47,839 nucleotides of DNA from Chromera velia. Taxonomy: Eukaryota > Sar > Chromeraceae. Each line of letters begins with the position of its first letter. Position 1 is the first letter of the stretch. Shown here piece after piece: positions 2,472 through 47,469 of this stretch. Below the pieces are notes generated by a model that ran no database searches, was not told the DNA's origin, and worked only from the letters and a program-made list of their open reading frames with translations. The stretch is taken from positions 1 through 47,839 of the forward strand of contig JAHBMJ010000095.1 of NCBI GenBank assembly GCA_018398765.1, in the 5' to 3' direction. The position numbers and the translations under genes were made by a program.

Positions 2472-5400
2472 CTACTCTCTCTCCTCCTTTCTTCTGCTGC
2501 TTCTGCTGCTGCTAGTCCTTCTGTTGCTACGCGGAGAAAACGGTCGGAGGGGGCCAAAGCAGGATTTCTCTCCATTCTCCCCGTGCCCAATAGCTCCAAA
2601 GTATTTCTCCATTTCCACCCAGGCTGCATCCACCTCCCTCGAGTGAGACCTCTCCTCTGCGCGATCCGCCAGTCCCTGCAGAAGTCTCAGAGGGACAAAC
2701 TCTCTCTCCGTCCCGCCTGCTCGCACATGAAACAGGCTCTCCCGCGCAAAGAGCCACCGAGCCTTGTGCTCTCTCCAGCTTCGGCCCAACTCTGTCCTCT
2801 GCCACCCTCTTTCCCTCTCCCGGTCCCACGGAAAGCCCGAGAACGGAAATTCGTCCGCGAAACGAGGGGGAGGAGGTGGCGCACACGTCGGGAATCTCGT
2901 GCGAGTCGGGCCAAGGTTTCGAGGTCGGTAGAGGAACCACAATGGAGGGCGGATCCCTTCCATCTGCCGATTGGAGCCTGACTCAAAGGGGACGGCAGGC
3001 CTCACGCTGGTGGGGGCCCCTCCCGAAGATGCAGAAGGCGCACGCGATTGGGCATGCGATGGCTGTCTCTCTCTTGCAGAAGGCGGACGCGATTGGGCCG
3101 ACCGCTGTCTCCCTGACGCAGCAGGCTGAGTCAGACACGTCGACTGACCCCAAGACCAGTGCCTTTGGAAAGGGTCTGCATATCCTCCAGTGAGCTGCCG
3201 TTGGTGATCAGCCAGCACAGGTGTGGGGTCGAGGGAGGCCCTGGGCAGGACGTGACTGCTTCTATTGTGAGAGGGAACCGAGCTGGAGGGCTGTGCGGGC
3301 ATGTTGGAGGGAAGGGAAGGATTCTGGAAAAGGTTTTGACCTTCTCTCACCGGGTCTTCCTCCTTCTCCTCTGTGACGGCAGGGGTAAGGGAAGGCTTTG
3401 TTCCCTCGGCCTCAACCTTCTCTGGCCCTTCCTGTTTCTCTCTCGGTCCGTCTTCCTCTGCGGCTGCCTCTTCACGGGGAGTCAACGACTCCCGCTGAGT
3501 ATGAAGGGGTGGGGGGCCGTGCCCCTCTGCGACAGACAGTAGGTGTGACTGCACTGGAGGTTCCGATCCCTCTGAGGGAGACGGTGGGTGTGACTGCACT
3601 GGAGTTGCCGGCCCCTCTGCTACAGACGGTGGGTGGGATTGCACTGGAGGTGCCGATCCCTCTGCGACAGACGGTGGGTGCGATTGCACTGGAGGTTCCG
3701 ATCCGTCTGCGACAGACGGTGGGTATGACTGCACTGGAGTTGCCGGCCCCTCTGCAACAGACGGTAGGTGTGACTGCACTGGAGTTGCCGGCCCCTCTGA
3801 GACAGACGGTGGGTGGGACTGCACTGGAGGTTCCGATCCCTCTGCCACAGACGGTGGGTGCGATTGCACTGGAGGTTCCGATCCCTCTGCGACAGACGGT
3901 GGGTGCGATTGCACTGGAGTTGCCGGTCCCTCTGCAACAGACGGTGGGTGCGATTGCACTGGAGGTGCCGATCCCTCTGAGACAGACGGTGGGTGCGATT
4001 GCACTGGAGGTGCCGATCCCTCTGCGACAGACGGTGGGTGCGATTGCACTGGAGGTTCCGATCCGTCTGCGACAGACGGTGGGTGTGACTGCACTAGAGG
4101 TGCCGATCCCTCTGCGACAGACGGTGGGTGCGATTGCACTGGAGGTTCCGATCCCTCTGAGGGAGACGGTGGGTGTGAGTGCACTGGAGTTGCCGGCTCC
4201 TCTGCGACAGACGGTGGGTGTGACTGCACTAGAGGTGCCGATCCCTCTGCCACAGACGGTGGGTGCGATTGCACTGGAGGTTCCGATCCCTCTGCGACAG
4301 ACAGTGGGTGTGACTGCACTAGAGGTGCCGATCCCTCTGCGACAGACGGTGGGTGCGATTGCACTGGAGGTTCCGATCCTGCACTAGAGGTGCCGATCCC
4401 TCTGCGACAGACGGTGGGTGCGATTGCACTGGAGGTTCCGATCCGTCTGCGACAGACGGTGGGTGTGACTGCACTAGAGGTGCCGATCCCTCTGCGACAG
4501 ACGGTGGGTGCGATTGCACTGGAGGTTCCGATCCCTCTGAGGGAGACGGTGGGTGTGAGTGCACTGGAGTTGCCGGCCCCTCTGCGACAGACGGTGGGTG
4601 TGACTGCACTAGAGGTGCCGATCTCTCTGCCACAGACGGTGGGTGCGATTGCACTGGAGGTTCCGATCCGTCTGCGGGTGTGACTGGACTAGAGGTGCCG
4701 ATCCCTCTGCGACAGATGGTGGGTGCGACTGTGCAGCTTGAAGGAGAGGATCCCTCGGGGGGTCGAGAGAGGGCAGGACGTGACTCCTTCTATTGTGAGA
4801 GGGAACCGAGCTGGAGGGCTGTGCGGGCATGTTGGAGGGAAGGGAAGGATTCTGGAGTAGGCTTTGATCTTCTCTCACCGGGTCTTCCTCCTTCTCCTCT
4901 GTGACGGCAGGGGTAAGGGAAGGCTTTGTTCCCTCGGCCTCAACCTTCTCTGGCCCTTCCTGTCTCTCTCTCGGTCCGTCTTCCTCTGCGGCTGCCTCTT
5001 CACGGGGAGTCAAGGGTTCCTGCTGACTGTGAGGGGGGGGGTGGGATTGGACGAAAAATGGTTGACGAGAATGGAGAGGCGGCTGGTTGGATGGAGGGAA
5101 AGCAGCTTGTCGTGCCTGCTGAAGAGACGGGTGGTGAGAAAGAGCCCCTCGAGACTGCTGACGGGACTGCAGGAGAGGAGACGTCCTTTTTGATTGGGGT
5201 GCGGAAGAGTGTTGGTGCTGCTGGGGGACACGGGTCTCCTGCGATCGGGACAGAGACAGAGAGCCCGTCGGTCCCACCCATCTCCTCAAAAGTCTGCGTT
5301 CTCCCTCTGCATCTTCCATAGCATCTACCCCGGGAACAGTCAAAGTGCCCTCATTGGACCACACCCCCAGAGGCCGTGCCCTCCCTGCCTCTCCACCTCC

Positions 5401-25071: not shown

Positions 25072-25491
25072 GACCCTGCAAAAAATATTGGAAAAGTGAT
25101 AAAAAAGTTGTTAGAAAAGTGATGGAAAACTGATAGAAAAGTGATAGAAATTCAAATTTCTAACATGTTAGAAATTTCAGTCAAATTCCTAACATTTTCT
25201 GTAATTTCTATCAAATGTTAGAAAAGTGATAGAAAATTAAATCAAATTTCTGTCACTTTTCTATCACTTTTCTAACAACTTTTCTATCATTTTTCTAACA
25301 TTTCTAACATTTAATAGAAATTGAGTATGACTTCTAACATGTTAGAAATTAAAGTTTAATTTTGATTACTTTTCTAAGTTTGATTTTCTATCACTTTTCC
25401 ATCAGTTTTCTATCATTTTTTTATCACTTTTCTAACAATTTTTGAAAATTATTTTTCTATCTGACACTTTTCTAACATTTTTTGCCAGGTC
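25072..25491. mobile_element. AT-rich fold-back (MITE-like) element
   Basis: The ends are inverted repeats of each other. GACCCTGCAAAAAAT at the left pairs with ATTTTTTGCCAGGTC at the right, with two mismatches. Between them, the left half is full of AGAAAAGTGAT and the right half of ATCACTTTTCT, so nearly the whole 420 bp can fold into one long imperfect hairpin. There is no open frame, so it would be non-autonomous. No clear target-site duplication was identified. Confidence 0.7.
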
Positions 25492-26352: not shown

Positions 26353-27831
26353 TCAAGAGAGAAAAGCAAAAGGCAGAGAAACTTCCGTATTTCTCTCAAA
26401 CCCAAAGTTAAAGGCGTAATGGGTGCACTGAAAAAGACCATTCAAAACATCCAGATGAGGATGAAAGTTCCACATGCTGATCAGGCCCCACCTGTCCATT
26501 TCTGCCCATCGCTCCTGCAACTCTTCCCACTCTGCCTCCAGTCGCTTTCGATAAGCTATCGCTTGCTGTTTCGCGCCTTCAAATCCATACAGAGAGACCC
26601 TGCAGGTAGAAAAAAGCCTTGAACTCCGTACAGATAAAAAAAGAAACCGAAAGAGCACGCCGGAATCACCTCTACGCAGACATTCCCGCTTCTCCTCGTT
26701 GCATACGATTTGGAGCTGCCCCTTCTTGGTCCGTCTTCCGAGCCTTGCAGAGGAAAGGTTTGGAAGAAAATCCCCGAAAACAGCACCAAGTAAACCACCG
26801 ACAGATCACAGAGATGAGATGCACAGCAGATCAAAACTCACGTCTGTCGATCTGAGGATGCTCCTCTAAAATTGAGACGCGTTTCTGACCAAAAGCACGC
26901 AACTTCACCTCCTCTTGATTCTGCTTTGCCTTCTCATGCAATAATGCTTTCCAGAGAACTGTCTTTCTTTCTTTCTTTCTTTCTTTCCTTCTTTCTTTCT
27001 TTTTGCACACAACGAGCACATGCATGAATTGTATTTGCGTACTTGAAGAGGGCGTTGCAGCGCACATGAAAGATCTTCTCGTCCACGTCCCTCTGGAACT
27101 GAACGTGCCAGGCCCCGCTCGGGTGCCACCGCACTCCCCGCACATCGCACTTGTACTTCTCCCAGTCGACACGGGCAGCCAGCTCTTTTGCCTCCGCGCT
27201 CTTTGACTCAACAAGTTTCTTCAGGGGACGGCTCTGGAGCACGGACAGCGGAATCGGTCTGTACCCTGTAGAAGAAGAAGGGAAAGGAAAGGAAGAGAAG
27301 GTCGAGCTTGATCTGTATGTCATGCGCTCTGCATTCCTTTCTCCGTCTCCTTCCCTGTTTCTCTATGTCATCTCGCGGTTGCGCTTTACCAGGGGACGGC
27401 TCTGGAGCACGGACAGCGGAATCGGTCTGTACCCTGTAGAAGAAGAAGGGAAAGGAAAGGAAGAGAAGGTCGAGCTTGATCTGTATGTCATGCGCTCTGC
27501 ATTCCTTTCTCCGTCTCCTTCCCTGTTTCTCTATGTCATCTCGCGGTTGCGCTTTACTGGCCAACTGATTTCTCTTGATAAGAACGGAAGAGAGGCCAGG
27601 AGGCAATTACCTGCTCAACGGGCCTGCCTGACACACGCGTCGTATGAATAAATCGACGCACGCATTCCTGTCTCAATGACCGAACCTCGTGCCCTCCCCC
27701 CATGCATTGAAGCAGCTATCGACCGACCGACCAACCGACCTACCCGGAGGCTTGGGCATATAGTCTGTCTGCAGGTTCTGCACGATCCGCATCTGGTAGC
27801 CTGCAGGGGCAACGGAGGAGCGAGAGAAAGT

Positions 27832-35021: not shown

Positions 35022-36677
35022 ATGGCAGAGTACAATTACTTCGTCACTGCCCACAAGGCGACTTCCGTCTCCTGTGCTGTGGGAGGGTCCTTCACCTCTG
35101 ACGGAGACGTGAACGTGGTGATGGCCAAGAACGACAACGTGGAGGTGCACAGGGTGACTACAGAGGGACTGCAGGAGTGCTTCTCTGTCCCCTTCTACGG
35201 AAAGGTGGCGGCGCTGCAGTTGGTCAAAACGCCGAACAGCAAGCTGGCCTATCTGTTTGCGTTGACCAAGGAGCTCAAGTGGGTGCTGATGAAGTACAAT
35301 CCAAAAAAGGGGGTGCCAGAGACCCTCGCAGAGGCCAGCGTTGCGGTCAGTCATCCTTCCAGAACTACTTGTTTGATTTTTTTGTCGCTTCAAATGCGCG
35401 TCTGACGGAATTGTTCTCTAAAAGGCTCGCCCCTCTCCCCGGGTCTCTCCCGTCTTCTCTTCTCTCCTTCTTCCTCCTGCGCCTCAAAGAAGTTGATGGA
35501 GGAAAATGATGCTGTGTTATGTTTTGGATTCAGCTGGCTTCTTCAATTTGTCAAAGCACAGCCAGCCGTCTTTTCTGTTTTTTTTCACCCATCAGACCGA
35601 GGGTCGCAGTGGCGAATGGACGTGAGAAGTAAAAGGAAAGCGGCTAGAGGCGGTCAGACTCGTCTGAGTCGTATGACAAAGAGCGCGCAATGAGCGGGCC
35701 TTCTGCCAACCTTGACCGTTATGGATTAAAAACATCTCCACCACACTTCTGGGAGCCCATGCACCCCCCCCTTTTTTGTGCAGGAAGATGTACGGAGAGA
35801 GGCGGACGGAGTGACTGTTCGTGTCGACCCCTACGCTCGGTGTGTGGTCATGCACACCCACAGCGGTTGCGTGAAGGTGTTGCCGATCGACACCTCCAAG
35901 AGAGACAGCTTGAAAGAAATGTTCTTCAAGGACGTTGGGCTAGATCTTAGGGACATGGTCATAGTCGATGAAGGTCCGGAAGAGAGCCAGCCGGGCAGCG
36001 CACCTCTCCTCTGCACTCTGCAAAAACGCCAAAGCTACACGAACAGGAAGGAAACGTACTCGTTGAACCTATTCAGGCTTCAGAGGGAAACTATTCCTTC
36101 TGCCTCCAAACTCCACAAAGCCCCCCCCACCCCAGGTTCCGGGGGAGGAGTCAAAAAGAAGAATTCAGGCGGGGGGTTGGGGTCAAGGGCTGAGGGTCAC
36201 CCGATAGATTTGGGAGAGACTCCGTGTGAGAGACTGGCCGCTGTACCTGCTGCTGTGGGAGGGGGCGTTTTGGCGTTCGGGCAGAACGAAATTTTTTGGG
36301 TGGGGGCAGACGGCGGTCAGGAGGTGATCAAACTGCAGACACCCCCAATGAGTGTGAGTCATTTATTTGTTGTTCTCAGTTTGTGTAGTAGATGTTCGTT
36401 CCAGCTATGGAGACTCAGTCACGCAGTGTTCTTTTCCAAAACTGGCGCTTGCATATAAAATTCTGAGGGCGATGAGAGTGTATTAGCTGGTTGGTTTCGT
36501 CGCGTGTCAAAGAGAGATCAGGTTTCTTTTCTGTCGAAGAGAAAACATGTAAAAAAATCCACTCCTCCTTTCTCCTGTGTCTCTTTCCCAGACAAATGGT
36601 CGCAGACAGAAACACGAAGAAACCGAAAGAGAGAGGGGAGCGAGAGAGGTAGGGAGAAACGTCGGAGGAGCTGTCTT

Positions 36678-36712
<35 letters not shown>

Positions 36713-39146
36713 GCTTTCTTTCCTTCATTGTGCAGCCGTGTGACGTAGCGCAACTGGACTCTGAGGGCAAACGGTGGATTTTGGCCTCCGGCGAGGGCGG
36801 CCTGTTTGTTGTGCACTTGACAGAGGAGGGGGGGAAGTCTGGGGGGTCTTCGAAGGGCAAAGTGAAGGGGGGGAGCAGGATCGAGTTGGAGATGCTCGCA
36901 GCCCCCAGTAACCGCAGTGTGATCCCATTTACTTCATCCCTCGTGCCCCTGCAGCCTCTGGTGCCGTTCGCCGAATCAGCTGCTGCCTCAAAGGGAAAGG
37001 CAGCAGCTGCTGCTGCGGCAGCAGGAGGCTCTTCGAGTGTGTCCGCAGTCAGCAGGGCCCTAGTTGAGTATGCGCAGTCTCGGGTTTTCGTTGGAGCATC
37101 GATTGGGGACTCTCTGCTCGTTCGTCTTCACAATTCTCTGGAGGAGGCGGAGGCGGCCAGAGGGCCTGAGGGGCCGGGGGAGGGCTTCGTGAGCGTGGAG
37201 CAGTCATTCGAAAATTTGGGGCCTGTGGCTGATGCCCTCGCGCTCTCGGGAGGGGGGAACGGACAGAGCAAGGTGTGTGTGTGTGTGTGTGTGGGTGTGG
37301 GTGTGGGTGTGGGTGTGTGTGTCTGTGGTGCGTCTGTCTCTCTCCGTCTGAGAACGATTTAGTCGTGTCTTTCTGTCTGTAGGGAACGTATTCGTGTCAA
37401 AGAAGAGGTAAACCTGGCTTGTAGGACTTTCCTTCTTCAAACGGATGAGGGTGTCTGAAACTGCAATCGCACGTTCTGGGCCCAAATGCAACAGTTACTT
37501 GTCTGGCTGGGCATTCCCTTTCGGTATTCCAGGGGAGAGAACCGAAGCAAAACATCCGAAGATAGGTCTCCTGGGATACTTATCCTCGGTTTCTGCGGCA
37601 CAAAAACACACCCATCCCTGCCCTGTGGGATTTTTTCTTTCTTTTGTACTTAGAAAGACCTTTTGTGCAAGATAGCACTTCCGTGTGGTGAGGACCCTTT
37701 TTCACTTTTCAGAGAGGCATTTGTAAACAGCCCTGGCTTTCGGGACAGTTGTTTTCAGTGTTCAGGCAGACAGGAGCGAAAGAAAAACACGTAACCCTGG
37801 AGTGTCTCTGCGTGTCGGGAAGGGAGAGAAGGGATGTGTATGTCTGAAAGAAAGGTACTATCTGTTCGCGCAACTTAATGCGGCCTTCTCGAAAGTGCCT
37901 GGGGAAATACGATAATGAAAAGAATTGCGTGGCTCATCTTTTTGCTGTATGTCTTCGGGTCTGTTTTCGTCCTCCCATTTTGGCTTTTTTGTTCTTATGC
38001 AGCTTCTGGTGGCTTGTGGGTACCAGCGCGCTGGGTGTGTGAAGGAGGTCCGGTTCGGTGTGGGGGTTCGGGAGCATGCGCGAGTGGATATTTCGGGAGT
38101 CGGCGGTATCTGGGCAGTTGGCACTCGGTGTGGGGGCTTCTCGGGGGCCACGGCATCGGGGGCCTTCGGTCTCGTGCTCTCGTTTGCGGACCAGTCGGTT
38201 GTTTTGGCTCTTTCCGGGGGCGGTGCGAAGGATAAGGAGAGGTCAGAGGAGGCAGGAGAAGAGGGGGGGGAAGTGGAGCTTGAGGAAGTTGAGGGGGGAG
38301 GGCTTGAGAGGGGCGTGCCGACTGTCTATTGCGGAAATCTTGTGGCCGAGCCTGAGGAGGGGACGGGAGGGGGGGGTGTTGAGGTCATCACTCAGGTTGG
38401 TTGAAGGCGTTTCTCTGCGACGAAAAAGGGGGGAAGAAAGGAGAAGAATGCAGGGAAGTGGCCAAGAGAGAGCTTTTGGTTTTCATATCTCAACTGCTAG
38501 CTCACTGTTCCTCACGAGTCTCTTGTTTCCACTGTGTCAGTGACCGAGTATCTGTTTGAGCACATTGTTTTTGGTTTGTTCTTCTCTTCTATCCGTTCAT
38601 GCAGGTGACTGCGAGCGGATGCATTTACTTTCATACAGAATTATTTTTGTAGATGAAAAAGAATTCTGTATGAAAGTAAGTGCATGGGGTGTTCTTCTCT
38701 TCTATCCGTGCATGATGCAGGTGACTGCGAGTGGAGTTCGGATCGTGAGTGCCAACCCGGAGCTTTCTCTCTTGGGAGAGTGGAGGTAGGTGCGTTGTTG
38801 CTTCTGTTCTGTTTTCGTCTTTCGTGTGCAGTCAAATTGCGGGCGGGAAGAATTGTTTTGGACTCAAGAGACATTCGCTGTCGTTGATTTTTGCTCCTCG
38901 TTGCGTTTTGTTTTTGTTTATCGCTGTAATTGCTTTTGTTCAGCGTGTTCCCTTCACTTCGGTGTAGGGCCTCAGTTTCGGAAACAGACGGCTGGTGTGA
39001 GAGACCGCGTTTCCTTTCGTGTGTTACCATATGTCGACCTCAATTTGCCTTCGCTCGACCCGCTTATTGAACGACTGCATCGGATAAATGGATTCGATTG
39101 GAAAGCAAGTAAGCCGTTTTCTTTCACTCTTTCGTTCACTTCGATG

Positions 39147-39177
<31 letters not shown>

Positions 39178-42100
39178 TTCTTTCTGTAAGCAGCGCTCCT
39201 GCGGATGTGCGGATCCATGTGGCTGCGGGTCGTGGCTCTCGCGTTCTTTTGGGAACCTCTCGAGGTGGTGTCATTCTTTTGAAACTCTGCCAAGAGAAGG
39301 AAGGGGGGGGAGTCAAGGCGGAGGTCGAGGCCGAGAGACGGATGGTGGGTCGTGTGGAAGGAAGTTGAGGTGGTGCTCTGAGAGGAAGGGAAATCGGGTG
39401 CTTGCACTAGAGGTCTAAAAATGTAGCTGAAGAGTGAAGGGAAACACAATGGGACGACAAGCCAGAGAGGGAGACGAGAGCCTTCCAGAATCGGTTGCAT
39501 TGTTTCGTTTCCTCCTCTTTCTTTGTCTATCGGTGCTTTTCATATCAAATGCCACACCAGAGGCGGCACAGGAAAGCCGGACCAACCAAGAGAGAGATGA
39601 TCAGAAGCTGAAAGGGAAGCCGGATCGATGCATGGGCTACGTCTGACTGGGTGTGTGTGCCCTTTTTCCTTTCTTTCCCTTCTTTCATCCCTTTCTTTGT
39701 TTCTTCTTTCTTCTCACCTGGTCGATGGTCCTCTCAGTTTGAACAGGTCGCCCGTCAATCGTTTTTTTTTTCTCACTCCTCTCTTTTCGCCCTGATGGTA
39801 TGTGTGTGAAGGAAGAGAAGAGGAAAGAAAAGACGATACCGTCTGTCTGCTTGTCTGTCTGCCTGCCTGCAGGATGCGGAGGTTGCGTGTGTGAGTTTCT
39901 CTGCCGACCCTGACTTGTCGGATGTCTGCGCCGTCGGGTTGTGGTCTGTGCGGACTGCTCTGCTTGCTCTGCCGTCCCTGCTGACCCTGGAGGAGACACC
40001 GCTGGGTGGAGAGATTATCCCGCGGTCAGTCGGTCGGTCCGAAAGAAAGAAAGAAAGAAAGCATTAAAATAAGTCATCTCCTTTAATTCTTTTGCTGGTT
40101 TCTTTTCTTGTACAGCAAACATGGAGGCGCGAAAAGGGGGGGTGGGGGGAGGAATACATATGAAGGAAGGAATCGAAGAACAGAGGATGCCAGGGAGTTG
40201 GGCCGGAGGGCAAGTGAAAAAAAGACGAACCAACCAACCAACGAACCCATCGAGGGACTCTCCCTCCTCCCGCCCGAGAGAAATGACCTTACAGTGATCC
40301 CGGACAAAAACGATCGGAAACAGTTTTATTGAAACAAGGTGACAAGCTTGCAGTCTGCTTCATTTTCTATGCTTGTGTTGCTGGTCTTGTGCTCTTTCGT
40401 TCTCCATGTACATCAATGGATGAATTAATATTGCGACATGGTTGCAGTTCCTGCCTCGTTGCCCCCCTAGGACCCCACACCTACCTGCTGACAGGCATGG
40501 GAGACGGCTCTGTTCTCTCTTTCCGGGTGCGCAGAGGGGAGAGCGATGCGATGACGGACGTGCAGGGCGGAACTGGAGGTTCGCTTCTTCTGTCGGGAAG
40601 ACGGCGTGTGCAGCTGGGCACCCAGCCCGCCCACCTCTCTTACTTCCCTCCCTCTCAGCAGCAGGGGGGGGCGTCTTCGCAGTCCGGCAGTGCCCCCGCA
40701 GGAAATGGAGACGTGGAGATGGTTGATGTGAATGACGCGGGGAGGGAAACAAAGGGGGGAGAAACTGGAGCGGGATCTGTGTTTGTATCGTGCGACAGGC
40801 CTTCGCTTATTCACTGGCCCTTCTCAGGCTCATCAGGGTTCTCGTCTTCCTCTTCTGCCGGGGAAGAGGACAAAGACGCAGGATCAACTGAAAGGGAATC
40901 TGAACGTGACAAGCTCGCTTTCCTCTTTGTGAACTCGGAGCCCATGTCGCGTTGTGTGCCCTTCCAGAGTGACTTTCTCGGAGGACAGACAGGTTCTTCT
41001 TCTTCGTCTTCCGGGTCGGGGGCTGGAGGTTCATCGTCTGGGGGGGGGAGTCAGCTTCGAGCTGCAGTGTCTGAGGATTCTCTTCAGATTCTAGAGTTGG
41101 ATGAAGGTCGGAGACTGTCGGTGAGGAAATGGACGGCTGGAAAGACAGTGACCTGGTGAGTGGACTAGCTGTTGAGTCGATGTAAGGAGAGAGAGGGGGG
41201 GGGAGGTGGGAGGGAGAATGGTCCTTGTGTGTGCATCAACTGACGGACGCAAATTTTGATGCGCCCTTGCGTGTGTCACGGACGGAGAATGGTCCTTCAT
41301 TGTGTGTGCATCAGTTCAATGTTGAGAGAAGGTTCTCTCTATAGATCGCTCTTTGTATTCAGATGTCTAAGTCCCTTGATTTTATCCCTTGATTCTCTCT
41401 CTGTGTGTGTCTGATCCTGTTTCCGCGTCTGAGCGCTTGGATATTCTTTCGCATCCTCGGGGGGTGAGAGACAGCGATTCTTCATCGGTCCCTTCCCTCC
41501 TTTGATCCTTCCCCCCGAGTGTCCTCCTGTTGTCAACCTGTCATTTGAACCCTCTGCTTGCTCCTCGATGGATCGAGCTTTGTGCAGTTTGGCCAACGAC
41601 AGCTCTTCTGGGACTCTGTTTGCGGGACTGATGGGACGGTTTCCTGATGAGTATTTGGAGCATGACAACGATGTTCTTGCTGTGGGGGTTGGGGGGGGAA
41701 GAGGAAGCTCGGAGAAGGATAGGGAGAGGGAGAACGAGTTCGCAGTGTTGGACGCAGAGGAAATGGCTCCTTTTGATTTCATCAGTCAGTTACGCCTGCC
41801 TCTTTGTCTGATTGGCTGGGTGCGGGATTGTTGAGGGAAGCGCTCTGCATGTTTCTGCCGTCATTCACGCCTTCCCCGTCGGAGCAAACATACGTGTTCG
41901 CCGGAGAGTCTCCGTTGCGCTGCACCCGTATCTTGTGCATTTCTTCTTCCCTCCTTTCCTCTCCTCTCCTTGCTTGTTTGCAGGGCTTCATCGAGAGGAG
42001 ATCCCTTTGAGTGCCTCTTCGATCTTTCCGGGGTCCAACCTGGCTGAGGAGGCATCCTTCTCTCGTCGGTTGAAGAGCGTGCAGGCTCAGCTGCGTCAGA

Positions 42101-45100
42101 AGAAGAGCTCAGGGTCGGCGGACGACGCGGAGATCGGCGCTCTCTCTCGAGAGGCTGAGGATTTGGAGGAGGTGTTGAGGAAGCGAAGCGAGGGCAGAGT
42201 GGAGGCAGTGGCCTTGTGCAGCATTAGAGTTGAGAAGCTCCACCATGTGGATGAACGCACAGGCAGTGTGGGGTCTGACTCCAACCACAAAGAGACGGGA
42301 GTCGTTCGCGTCATGAAAGTGGACGTCGACGCGGTCAGTTAGTAGGTGCATGTGTGAGTGTGTGCATATTATTCTCTCTCTCTCTCTCTCTCTCCCCCCC
42401 CCCCTCTCTCTCTATGTGAATGTGTGAATGTGTGTGTGCGCCTGTAAGTGTGCTCGATGCTGATTCGTTCAAACTGAATGGACGGCTTTGGGGCCTCACG
42501 ATAGTGCTCTGGATGTTCTTTCTTTCAAATGCAGGCTGGTGAGAGGCGGTTGTCGGAGCTGTGCCGTGTGGAGGAGCCGGGTCCGATCAGTTCGTGCTGC
42601 CAGTGGGGGGACCGGCTGGTGGTTGCCATCAAGAACACTCTCAGAGTGTACAGAATGTCGATGGAGGGACTAAAGGGGGGGGAGGAGAACGAGGCCATGG
42701 AGGGAACAGCAGGGGGCTCCAGACCCACTACAGCATCATCAGGTCTCGGTGGGGCTGCTGCAGCTAGCGCCTCCTCCTCTTCTTCTTCTTCTGGACCGGA
42801 GAAGGGGCTGGTGATGAAGCTTGTGTTTGACTGCAAGGCGACGGCTGGGGTTGAAATTGTCCAAATGCAGGCATGGTCAGTGAGTCAGTCATGACTGTTG
42901 GTCAGGTGGGGTGTGGGGTCACGGAGTCGGTGCGCGGGTTGAAGTTGCGACACGGGGAGGAGACAGCCAGAGGGAGAAAATTGGGCTCAGAGACCTTTCA
43001 CTTCTGCTCTTTCCTTCTTTTCTTCATTTCATCCACCCGTTTGCGGGCACAGTGGCCCTCTCGTTGTGTCTGTGTGCGTCAAAAACGTCAATTGTGCTGT
43101 GAGGCTTTCCCTCCCATCAGTCATTTACTTTAGTGTGCAAAGCGCAGGAGGAAGGAGAACGATGCTTCCCCTCTTCCCTCCTTCTATGGTCTGACCTTTT
43201 TTTTGTCTTGGTCTCCGGGTGCAGTGGCGATATTGCGGTGGTGGCAGACGTGATGAAGGCAGCCAGTGCATGCGTTTATTTTCATACAGAATTATTTTTC
43301 ATACAGAAAATAAACGCATTCCTCTTCTTGGTCTCCGGGTGCAGTGGCGATATTCTGGTGGTGGCAGACGTGATGAAGGCAGCCAGTGCATGCGTTTATT
43401 TTCACACAGAATTATTTTTCATACAGAAAATAAACGCATTTCTCTTCTTGGTCTCCGGGTGCAGTGGCGATATTCTGGTGGTGGCAGACGTGATGAAGGC
43501 AGCCAGTGCATGCGTTTATTTTCATACAGAATTATTTTTCATACAGAAAATAAACGCATTTCTCTTCTTGGTCTCCGGGTGCAGTGGCGATATTCTGGTG
43601 GTGGCAGACGTGATGAAGGCAGCCAGTGCATGCGTTTATTTTCATACAGAATTATTTTTCATACAGAAAATAAACGCATTTCTCTTCTTGGTCTCCGGGT
43701 GCGGTGGCGATATTCTGGTGGTGGCAGACGTGATGAAGGCAGCCAGTGCATGCGTTTATTTTCATACAGAATTATTTTTCATACAGAAAATAAACGCATT
43801 TCTCTTCTTGGTCTCCGGGTGCAGTGGCGATATTCTGGTGGTGGCAGACGTGATGAAGGCAGCCAGTGCATGCGTTTATTTTCATACAGAATTATTTTTC
43901 ATACAGAAAATAAAAGCATTTCTCTTCTTGGTCTCCGGGTGCAGTGGCGATATTCTGGTGGTGGCAGACGTGATGAAGGCAGCCAGTGCGTTTCGTCTGT
44001 CTGTTCCTCGGGGGAACTCTGAGGTTAGGGGGGCAGGGTGGGGTTTAACTTGGATGCGCTTTCTCTTTTTTCTCATTCCTGTGCGCCGTCTTTCACATGG
44101 GTCGTGCCGGTGTGAATTCACGCAGCATGGATGGAAAGTGAAAGGTGCATCGGGGAGTGAATGTTTTCTGTCCGCCTCGTGCTCTCAGTGTAGTGGGGGC
44201 GTATGAGAGGGCTTGGATCTCACTTCTTTGTTTGTTTGCTCGTTTCTTTTTATGCCTATCTGTCTGTGTTTTTTTGTTCTTGCCTCACTTGCCTACCACT
44301 CATCCCTCTCGCCTCCTTGCAGCAGTCTGCTGAGCTGGAGGAAGTCGGGGCGGCAATGCAAAGCGTTTGGAGCATGTGGGCCTTCTTTTTTTTCTTCCTT
44401 TTCTTCATTCCTTCCTTCAACTCGCTTTTTCATTTCTCTTTTGCTTTTATCGTCTCACGTCTCCCTTTCATTGATCCATTCTTTCATTGTTCTCCAAAGC
44501 CCCTAGACAAAAAATTCAGTTTTCTCTCTAAGTGTTTTCAATGTTCTCCAAAGCCCCTAAACAAAAAATTCAGTTTTCTCTCTAAGTGTTTTCATTGTTC
44601 TCCAAAGCCCCCAGACAAAAAATTCAGTTTTCTCTCTAAGTGTTTTCATTGTTCTCCAAAGCCCCCAGACAAAAAATTCAGTTTTCTCTCTAAGTGTGAA
44701 TCGTGCTGCCTCGCTTGTTGCTTCCCTCTGCAGGGCCGTCTCCCCCCTTTCCCCGTGCGCTTTCCTCCTCGCGGACGATCACGACAACCTGATGGTATAC
44801 GGAAGGTCTGTCTGTCTGTCTGTCTACCTGTCTGTCTGTCTGTCTGTAGGATCGAGGTGTAAGAAAGATCGAATGATTTTGTTGTCGGTCCCTCTCTGCG
44901 AGAGTGAGAGTGAGAGTGTCCGGCCTCCTGAGGCAGCAAATTCACAGGACGCTCGCTGTCTGCCTGCCTGTCTGTCGGTTTTTCCTTCTGTCTTGTCGCC
45001 TTCTGTCCGCGTTTTGTGGTGCGTGTGTGCGTGTGTATGTGTGTGCGTGCGTGGGAGAGTGCGTGTGTGTGTGGGTGTGTGCGTGTGCGTGCAGGTGTGG

Positions 45101-45269
45101 GTGTATGTGTATGTGTGTGTCTATTTGTATGTGTATGTGTACGTGTGTGTGTGTGTGCGTGTGGGTGCGGGTGACGGTGCGTGTGTGCGTATGTGTGTGT
45201 GTGTGCGGGTGTGGGTGTATGTGTATTTGTGTGTGTGTGTGTGTGTGTGTGTCTATTTGTGTGTGCTTG

Positions 45270-45302
<33 letters not shown>

Positions 45303-46203
45303 TGTCTCTGTGTGTGCGTGCGTGCAGAAACGTGATTGACAATTCAGATGAAAAGAGGGCAGACCTCCAGGAACATGCGGCCATGCACTCAGGACACAAC
45401 ATCACATGGTTGGTCTGCTGGGCTGAGCTTCTGTCTGTTTTTCTTTCTTTCTTTCTTTCTTTCTTTCTTTGGTTCGTTGTTTCTTTCTGTCTTCATTCCT
45501 TTCTCCCCGCTCCGTCCCTCTATTTTTCCTCGCCAACCTGTGCTTTTTCTTAGCTCGCTGAGGGCTCCTGTTCTACTTTGATTTTGGCTTTCTCTTCTTT
45601 TCTGCTTTTTCTTCCCCTCCCAGCCTCCGTTGACCTTTCTTTTCATGTGCGTGCGGCAGACGTTGGAATGACGGATGCTCTCTTTTCTTTTCAGTGCCTT
45701 TTGTTCATGTGACAGGGCTCTGCTTCTGGCTGAATTTTTGAATTCGTGCATCAGCGAAAGAGTGACTGTGAGAGTGAATGAGTTTGTGTGACCATCCTGA
45801 AACGAGTGAGTGCAGCATTCGAGAGGGGCGGCTGGTCGGTGCACCCGTGGGTGTCTCCAACGCGGACAGGTGGGGGAAGGTTGTGGGTGCGTGGAGAATG
45901 GATAAACGTGCTGGAGGGGGTTGTGGGTGTGTGTGCATCCATTCCGGTCGTCTTGTGCTTCCTTTGTTTTGGAGGACTTCATCTTTTGTGTTTTTGGCAT
46001 CTGTTTCGGTCCTCTGATTCTACACATTCTTTCTGCGTGCCTTCTTATTAAGAGGTCCTCTGGACTGTTCTTGGACGGCGGCAGACAACAGACAGAGGGT
46101 TCGATCAGAAAACAAGAAAGCACCTCGATCCTCTTGCTGCCTGCCCGTCTGACTGTGCCAATATTGGTCTCTTCTCGTGCTGTGGAGAGCTGTGCTCGAA
46201 TCC

Positions 46204-46234
<31 letters not shown>

Positions 46235-47469
46235 GGAGACAAGCTCAAGAAATGGATAAAAATCAGAGGTGGTCCCACTGAGTAAGTGATAGTACTCATG
46301 CATCCATGAACCATAATCATGTTCCTGTCTGTGCCTTCGTTCGTGTACCTGCAGAGGCGATTCTCTGGAGGCAGGCGTCGGTGCTTCCTCCAACGAGAAA
46401 GGCGGAGGGGAGGAGGAGGGAGAGACGGGTGAAGAGGAGGGGGAGGAGGCAACGAAGTCCAAAATCTGGATGTCGAAAGAGGGGGCAATCGGTTCGTTGG
46501 TTCTGTCTCTTTTGTTTTGTTTTCTCCCTTTTCTCCTCTCCTCTTCTTTCTGCTCTCTGTCTGTCTTGTCGCCTTTTCCCCGTGAAAAAGAACTGCGTAT
46601 TTCACCTCTCTTTCCTCTCCCCGTCTCACTCATTCTCTCTCTCTGAGGGGAGCCGTTTCCTTTTTCTGAACAGTTGGTTGGCTGGCGATCTTCTGCAGTT
46701 CCGCTTGAATCTCTTCTCTGCGCTCCCCTCTTGTGCTTTTGTTGCAAATTTGCTAATTCTTTGGACGTTGGCTCCTGATCCTCTTTCAGCGCATCCCCTG
46801 ATCTCCCTCCTTCCTTCCATAGGCTAGGCAGGGCAGGTTCTTTTGACCGTCTCCGATCTTTCTTCTTCACTCTTTCGTCGAATCTTCTGCTCCTCTTTCT
46901 CTTTCTCTTTGTGCAGGACTGGTCATGCCTGTGAGAGGAAAGAGACGGCGCTTTGCTCATCTGATGCGACTTCAGGTCTCTCTCCCTTTCTGTGTTTGTG
47001 ATTGTCTCGTCCCGTTCTTGTATTTTTCTTTTTCTAAGTGCCCGCCTTTCTTTCTCATGCGGATTCTTTTTGCGGGGCTTGTGTGCTCAAACGGCCGTCT
47101 CTCCACCGCAAAACAGGCAACCTACAGGTGCACTGCCACAACAGGCAACGCAAAACTGACAGACACCTTCCATACGCACTCTAACTAAAAGTCACCTTAG
47201 TCCCTTCATTTTCTTTCTTTTCTTTCTTTCTTTCTTTCTTTCTTTTCTTTCTTTCTTTCTTTCTTTTCTGTCTGTCTTTCTTTCTTTCTTTCTGTCTGTC
47301 TGTCTGTAAGCAGGACGCGGTGGCCCGGGTCGTGAAGAGAGAGGCCGGGGCCCTCCCCAGCAGCAGCCAGAAGCCGGCGGGAGGAGAGGGAGGCGGTGCG
47401 GCCTCGGGATCTGCCTCTGCGGCGGCACACGAACACTGGAGGAGGAAGAATAATGGAACGACAGATCAG
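35022..47469 (+). CDS. DDB1: DNA damage-binding protein 1 (CUL4 adaptor), at least 19 exons, C-terminus beyond window
   Basis: DDB1 is the triple beta-propeller adaptor that links CUL4 ubiquitin ligase to substrate receptors. The N-terminus (NYFVTAHKATSV, FTSDGDVNVVMAKN, VTTEGL) matches the DDB1 start. Later landmarks include RVFVGASIGDSLLVRLHNS, FENLGPVAD, ISGVGGIWAV, VCAVGLWS, GGEIIPR, YLLTGMGDGSVLSF, LGTQPAHLSYF, CDRPSLIHW, GDILVVADVM and GAIGLVM. Exons: 35022-35345, 35784-36353, 36736-37272, 38003-38395, 38721-38785, 39194-39344, 39873-40024, 40448-41155, 41588-41784, 41984-42333, 42535-42875, 43945-44023, 44323-44375, 44734-44805, 45328-45408, 45816-45869, 46355-46491, 46917-46975 and 47314-47469. 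Every junction is GT-AG and phase-consistent, giving 1493 residues so far, compared with 1140 for the whole human protein. The extra length is Gly/Ser/Glu-rich insertions between blades (for example in exons 3, 8, 10, 11 and 17). The expected C-terminal FIDGDLIE-like segment is absent, so the last exon or exons lie past the edge. Exon 12 could start at any of seven tandem acceptors. Confidence 0.93.
38578..38735. repeat. Duplicated splice acceptor of DDB1 exon 5 around a hairpin
   Basis: 38578-38619 and 38691-38735 are near copies containing the intron end GTTCTTCTCTTCTATCCGT, the acceptor GCAG, and the first 15 nt of exon 5 (GTGACTGCGAG...). The second copy has a 3-nt ATG insertion before GCAG. 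Only the right copy leads into exon 5; reading on from the left acceptor meets TAG after 15 codons. Confidence 0.92.
38620..38684. repeat. Hairpin element at DDB1 exon 5
   Basis: A 23-nt arm at 38620-38642 (TGCATTTACTTTCATACAGA...) pairs with 38662-38684 with one difference, which would be a G-U wobble in RNA. The loop is 19 nt. The core CATACAGAATTATTTTT is shared with the hairpins in the exon 12 array. Confidence 0.93.
43201..43990. repeat. 120-bp tandem array of acceptor, exon start and hairpin (DDB1 exon 12), seven acceptors
   Basis: Units begin at 43201, 43321, 43441, 43561, 43681, 43801 and 43921. Each has an intron-type end (CTTCTTGGTCTCCGGGTGCAG), 46 nt of exon 12 (TGGCGATATT...GCAGCCAGTGC) and, in the first six units, a hairpin. 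Copies differ by only one to a few bases. The seventh unit runs on into the rest of exon 12. The 40-aa frame CSGDILVVADVMKAAS... stays open throughout because 120 is a multiple of 3. Confidence 0.97.
43270..43319. repeat. Hairpin element, first of six in the exon 12 array
   Basis: A perfect 14-nt stem, ATGCGTTTATTTTC at 43270-43283 and its complement at 43306-43319, encloses a 22-nt loop. The sequence TTTCATACAGAA also appears twice within it as a short direct repeat. The same structure recurs every 120 bp to about 43919; the sixth copy has one arm mismatch (AAAGCATT). Confidence 0.93.
44485..44697. repeat. 54-bp tandem repeat in DDB1 intron 13, four units
   Basis: The marker TCTCCAAAGCCC recurs every 54 bp from about 44491. 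It lies wholly inside the intron between 44375 and 44734. The period is a multiple of 3, so an 18-aa frame (CFHCSPKPPDKKFSFLSK) stays open, but splice sites on both sides argue that it is intronic. Confidence 0.88.
45003..45327. repeat. GT-rich microsatellite in DDB1 intron 14
   Basis: Imperfect (GT)n with GC and AT interruptions covers about 320 bp and ends at the exon 15 acceptor (GCGTGCGTGCAG). Similar but shorter GT tracts precede exon 3 (36680-36708) and follow it (37273-37322). They could act as part of the polypyrimidine-poor splice context. Confidence 0.92.
47205..47306. repeat. TTTC/TCTG tetranucleotide repeats before DDB1 exon 19
   Basis: Runs of TTTC and TCTG fill the end of intron 18 and may supply its polypyrimidine tract. 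Like tracts occur at 26963-27001, 39150-39180 and 45442-45470. Confidence 0.92.

Follow-up and report, generated by a model that had tools for sequence, protein, structure and literature searches.

DDB1 gene and its mapping

The window, meaning the whole 47,839-nt stretch of Chromera velia DNA analysed here, carries a DDB1 gene on its forward strand. Exons were mapped in exact blocks from residues 1-1492 of P0001, the DDB1 database protein of the same species in UniRef and EukProt, which represents a transcript or a gene model. P0001 is DDB1, nearer to DDB1 than to other members of its family, because DDB1 tops its matches among solved structures (best E 3.6e-62, with splicing factor 3B subunit 3, SF3B3, following from 6.2e-5) and three Pfam families match it (PF10433, PF23726 and PF03178), with propeller and CPSF_A families both present. 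The protein extends 89 residues beyond the last exon in the window, and these residues found zero matches in the genome in a search that had no positive control and is therefore weak. P0001 thus probably derives from more than this contig alone. The exon discussed below is exon 12 of the P0001 model, the number that an initial annotation of this DNA had also given it.

35022..47469, forward strand: DDB1 gene
42535..42875, forward strand: exon 11, from the P0001 mapping
43945..44023, forward strand: exon 12 in its P0001 form, from the P0001 mapping

A tandem array at the intron 11/exon 12 border

Tandem Repeats Finder reports an array at 43206-43989 with a period of 120, 6.5 copies and 98% matches. 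Its 784 nt equal 6 x 120 + 64, the length of seven host copies of 64 nt alternating with six elements, H(EH)6. Each host copy consists of the end of intron 11, an acceptor and the opening 45 nt of exon 12, and each element is a 50-nt palindrome. The first element has terminal inverted repeats of 14 nt (arms 43270-43283 and 43306-43319).

43206..43989, forward strand: tandem array H(EH)6, period 120
43206..43269, forward strand: host copy 1, acceptor AG at 43223-43224, its exon start carrying GCG (Ala)
43326..43389, forward strand: host copy 2, acceptor AG at 43343-43344
43446..43509, forward strand: host copy 3, acceptor AG at 43463-43464
43566..43629, forward strand: host copy 4, acceptor AG at 43583-43584
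43686..43749, forward strand: host copy 5, acceptor lost, GG at 43703-43704
43806..43869, forward strand: host copy 6, acceptor AG at 43823-43824
43926..43989, forward strand: host copy 7, acceptor AG at 43943-43944, running on into the remainder of exon 12
43270..43319, no strand assigned: first of six foldback elements, 50 nt, palindromic, DNA hairpin fold z -7.25
Starts at 43390, 43510, 43630, 43750 and 43870: elements 2-6

Host copies 2, 3, 4, 6 and 7 are identical across 64 nt. Copy 5 differs from copy 7 by one base and copy 1 by two, its codon GCG (Ala) taking the place of CTG (Leu). Among the elements, blocks 3, 4 and 5 share one sequence, and blocks 1, 2 and 6 are each one base off block 3. 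With up to two mismatches, the 14-nt core of the element has 14 matches in the window, against 0.22 expected.

The initial annotation had described seven near-identical 120-bp units, each with an intron end, an AG acceptor and the start of the exon. The tandem array, the near identity of its units and their intron-acceptor-exon content stand, but about 50 of every 120 bp are a mobile hairpin element, not DDB1, which had been missed; there are six elements to seven host copies, the first host copy deviates, and the acceptor dinucleotides read AG, AG, AG, AG, GG, AG, AG, leaving six AG acceptors of the seven claimed. Since several units are identical, the assembled copy number is not to be taken as exact, and a short-read assembly could have miscounted it.

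A second insertion at the exon 5 acceptor

The same element family occurs once more in DDB1, between two copies of a 43-46-nt duplication that covers the acceptor of exon 5.

38577..38619, forward strand: upstream target copy, whose acceptor AG at 38603-38604 leads into the element
38619..38685, no strand assigned: foldback element of the array family, 30-nt arms, 93% complementary, DNA hairpin z -12.52
38690..38735, forward strand: downstream target copy, whose acceptor AG at 38719-38720 starts exon 5

From 38605, after the first acceptor, the reading is VTASGCIYFHTELFL, ending in a stop after 15 codons, while the second acceptor gives the exon 5 start VTASGVRIVSANPELSLLGEW found in P0001. 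Because the first acceptor runs to a stop, the downstream one must, judging from the reading frame, be the only one here that makes DDB1, and the site is the natural control for the exon 12 array. Among 12 direct-repeat families listed in the window (the DDB1 array itself was filtered from this list as low complexity), the one at 38577 has a hairpin of the array family between its copies and two others have other inverted repeats.

A dispersed foldback family with flanking duplications

An exact search of the genome (177.8 Mb, 4040 contigs) finds the 19-nt element core TTTCATACAGAATTNTTTT 690 times and the reversed pattern not at all. Insertions number fewer than 690 because both arms and every array copy are counted separately. 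A sample of 98 fetched loci (296,665 letters) was reduced to 67 without overlaps and to 66 by removing L044, which is the same DDB1 array as L001, before counting. Loci L001-L008 had been chosen by similarity to the DDB1 unit, and the others come in contig order from pattern searches.

At 64 of the 66 loci, an ungapped direct repeat of host sequence scoring at least 16 spans the core, with L061 and L090 falling below this score. Of 134 positions drawn at random from these loci, 12 reached the same threshold; six of the 12 are simple repeats and one is the 54-bp array of the window. Fifty loci are simple pairs, with a duplication of 16-83 nt (median 44.5) and 10-113 nt between the copies; the alignments are weak in L070 and L076 and extend into the element in L021, L027 and L035. 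Because the two copies are identical over 38-50 nt in six loci (L030, L050, L051, L056, L066 and L096), some insertions of this family are, by this measure, recent. No prior description of the family was found in the full text of the open-licence papers searched.

Arrays were found at 13 of 67 loci among the first 100 core matches listed, with cores on the same strand every 73-160 bp, or 240 bp in cases where one core is masked by a mismatch. Array lengths of the form host-(element-host)n would be expected from subsequent expansion of a two-copy insertion. Six of the 14 arrays sampled, besides that of DDB1, fit this form with a host part of 39-54 nt (L004, L008, L018, L065, L087 and L094); in the remaining seven, the host part is either short or unclear. 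The arrays have the look of two-copy insertions that expanded afterwards.

Empty sites

Flanks of 34 pair loci (10 + 24) were joined without the element and the second copy and searched against the genome. One clean empty site emerged, C320:85481-85696, a paralog of L049 that aligns with the joined flanks along their full 210 nt at 90%. It is homologous on either side and contains a single 33-nt target copy but neither arm of the core, and the target is a border with a CAG acceptor. This indicates insertion, rather than mere repetition, at one locus other than DDB1. L049 itself has a stop and a 3-nt gap relative to its paralog and may be a decayed gene, so the locus shows insertion, not splicing. 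By eye, L049 and L101 are apparently kinase paralogs, although their short peptide has no Pfam match.

A partial empty site, C3659:44661-44831, passes through the L066 joint with one target copy; its left flank is supported by only 10 C/A-rich nt, and L066 holds an additional partial target copy upstream. EGF-like paralogs cross the L034 joint at 73-87%, with matches that start at the target and so leave the left flank uncovered. For 32 of the 34 loci tested no usable empty site was obtained, the hits being mostly self matches or short repeats. At L096 and L100 the paralogs are alike to and past the first target copy and then diverge, and insertion at these two loci looks more complex than a simple duplication.

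Target signature and splice sites within the duplications

Across 40 pairs, pyrimidines make up 64% of the 10 nt preceding the duplication, against 48 +/- 3.8 at random (0 of 2000 random sets reach this value), and purines make up 61% of the 10 nt following it, against 49 +/- 3.8 (2 of 2000). Ten of the 50 pairs were dropped for this comparison, L024 and L095 for length and eight that were judged to be weak or to extend into the element (L021, L027, L028, L035, L045, L070, L076 and L093). The two sides mirror one another on opposite strands. The simplest reading, which we infer from this symmetry, would be that each strand is nicked after a pyrimidine run, with about 45 nt between the nicks, and that fill-in follows insertion. 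In DDB1, the array duplication begins after a run of T plus one G. A TGCA motif, present at the left edge of the target in 12 of 40 cases (against 7.8%) and at the right edge in 3 of 40, was set aside, as alignment with the element end may cause it.

Clear duplications of splice sites are found in actin, in a DEAD-box helicase and twice in DDB1. The actin exon (L058; E 8.5e-30 to solved actins, Pfam Actin) has its donor side duplicated. In the helicase (L017; Pfam DEAD), LDEAD is preserved in the upstream copy, which adjoins the donor that re-establishes the reading, and the orphan copy reads LEEAD. An ankyrin-type exon (L052) lies barely over the Pfam cut-off, and three of the six exon peptides submitted to Pfam had no match. 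At both of its ends, one actin exon appears to carry a family element and a duplicated edge (L058 1250-1850, minus strand), the acceptor side as judged by eye. In L051 (1442-1608), identical 49-nt target copies lie across an apparent acceptor, and the 117-nt read-through is open and in frame, making this locus a candidate for a second in-frame insert.

Splice-like motifs, identified with home-made and therefore weak scores, occur in 41% of 100 target copies, against 22% of random segments (left p 0.0004, right 0.007) and 29% of flank-matched segments (left p 0.014, right 0.095). Donor-like motifs are in excess in the flank-matched comparison (30% against 15%), whereas acceptor-like motifs show no excess (13% against 16%). 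Strong targeting of splice sites was therefore rejected: the acceptor excess is gone after flank matching, with nothing beyond the pyrimidine signature for acceptors. The figures suggest an excess of splice-like sites of up to twofold that is due in part to the pyrimidine and purine flanks, and for acceptors fully so.

Acceptor use at exon 12

Read from the first acceptor, 43226-44023 is open for 266 codons, in frame and with zero stops, and the initial annotation had correctly given all the acceptors the same phase. In conceptual translation, choice of an upstream AG yields DDB1 with extra 40-residue units. Two options had been put forward on this basis: a lengthened intron that ends at the last acceptor, or isoforms carrying a ladder of repeats. 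The lengthened intron is favoured by P0001, by the stop at 38577-38735 and by the lack of a general in-frame unit in the family. P0001 reads QAC-GDILVVADVMKAASA-FRLSV, with exon 12 present once, and has Leu, the residue of copies 2-7, where host copy 1 encodes Ala. The last acceptor, 43944, is for this reason likely the one for exon 12. An assembler could have collapsed a repeated exon in P0001, but the Leu that follows the junction speaks against copy 1.

It is thus unlikely that several acceptors are used and that DDB1 carries between zero and six copies of a 40-residue insert in its CPSF_A region, even though six AG acceptors share an identical upstream 17 nt inside the host copy, every 120-nt unit is open and in frame, and L051 offers another open in-frame case of 117 nt. 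Besides the absence of the insert from P0001, the sister insertion in exon 5 breaks the frame at its first acceptor, one acceptor of the array is already lost, and offsets divisible by 3 are in no excess in the family (19 of 50 pairs, 5 of 14 arrays). The same counts led to the rejection of selection for an in-frame unit. Low-level DDB1 isoforms may occur. The longest upstream pyrimidine tract in the array, judged by eye, belongs to the first acceptor.

Origin of the array

The DDB1 array probably arose when an element inserted with a 64-nt duplication covering the acceptor and the product then expanded in tandem, all sequence ahead of the last acceptor being intron and the element coming from a dispersed family that duplicates about 45 nt between nick sites. 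In the order that we infer, a 50-nt non-coding foldback element would have inserted at the intron 11/exon 12 border and duplicated 64 nt of the target, acceptor included. The block of the element and one host copy would then have expanded in tandem to six units. Exon 11 would be spliced to the last acceptor at 43944, exclusively, and the earlier acceptors and all six elements would leave as intron. For the family as a whole, the host DNA of about 45 nt between two nick sites, each after a pyrimidine run, would become duplicated.

It is improbable that the assembly inflated a single insertion with two host copies to six units. Several units are indeed identical, and the likely source assembly, if it is of the same genome, was built from short reads with 71-mers according to excerpts of PMC4501334. 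However, units 1, 2, 5 and 6 carry private differences, and arrays occur at 12 other loci of the 67 (among the first 100 matches listed), mostly with different periods. A plain minisatellite or 'mirage', in which slippage or unequal exchange duplicated the border and carried the hairpin along, is more doubtful still: although excerpts on amphioxus genes describe tandem repeats across exon-intron borders and mention no hairpin family, and 7 of 14 arrays lack a clean host-(element-host)n form, here 64 of 66 loci combine one element family with host units that are unrelated, 50 of them with simple two-copy flanks, and the clean empty site (C320) has neither the element nor a second copy.

We tentatively propose, as a possibility short of even odds, that a palindromic micro-element opens its target by nicking it twice behind pyrimidine runs, at an interval of about 45 nt, and leaves a product prone to tandem expansion. 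Such an element would copy whole native splice sites repeatedly, because intron ends carry pyrimidine runs, and the resulting spare acceptors and donors could be used, lost or made into new exons.

Relation to known systems

The closest known systems are amphioxus mirages, foldback MITEs and introners. Foldback or MITE-type DNA elements are short and non-coding, with terminal inverted repeats and many dispersed copies; Tm1 is reportedly an example. DDE transposases give a short target duplication of fixed length. The Chromera hairpin family is likewise short and non-coding, has terminal inverted repeats (14-nt and 30-nt arms), and occurs as dispersed copies with target duplications and one clean empty site (34 loci tested). 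Its duplications are, in contrast, long and variable rather than short and fixed, at 16-83 nt in 50 pairs (median 44.5).

Mirages of the amphioxus Adh3, globin, TnC and PGBD5 genes are minisatellite-like tandem copies of 5' and 3' exon-intron borders, with splicing reported as undisturbed and an origin called unclear (excerpts of PMC3087553 and PMC3902484). The DDB1 array likewise has several tandem units over an exon-intron border, as in those excerpts. It differs in that its units hold a foldback element specific to this family, which has target duplications at many loci, whereas the excerpts mention no hairpin family for mirages.

Introners are described in part of the literature with repeats that measure 3-9 bp in earlier families (PMC9860276) or 3-5 nt (PMC7789003); excerpts of both papers also describe some with inverted repeats or hairpins and some that take splice sites from duplicated target DNA. 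Elements of the hairpin family resemble introners, as portrayed there, in sitting at spliced positions. In DDB1, however, they enlarge an existing intron and duplicate an entire native splice site, unlike the introners of these excerpts; both insertions extend introns ending at native acceptors, and neither forms a new intron. Direct repeats of 4-30 bp (mean 11.4) near the borders of 213 introns have been read as insertion traces (excerpts of PMC11782384). The hairpin family shares with these introns direct repeats at or near exon-intron borders, but has a shared element and arrays, both absent from the introns in those excerpts.

The excerpted amphioxus work (PMC3087553) describes it as unclear how exon-intron borders come to be copied in tandem. 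Many comparable cases exist in the Chromera genome, with the duplication carried by a defined element; they range from identical two-copy flanks to arrays and include at least one clean empty site. The proposed route of intron growth and splice-site gain thereby becomes directly testable.

Other repeats in the window

Four further repeats lie in the window. At 44482-44697, within a DDB1 intron, are four 54-bp units (96% matches), and no inverted repeat lies between the copies compared. Two identical 168-bp tandem copies occupy 27222-27557, and a short-unit A+T-rich stretch with an inverted repeat lies at 25091-25442. A long array of 45-bp units at 3523-4676 (about 19 plus 6.6 copies) has a period divisible by 3 and is possibly coding.
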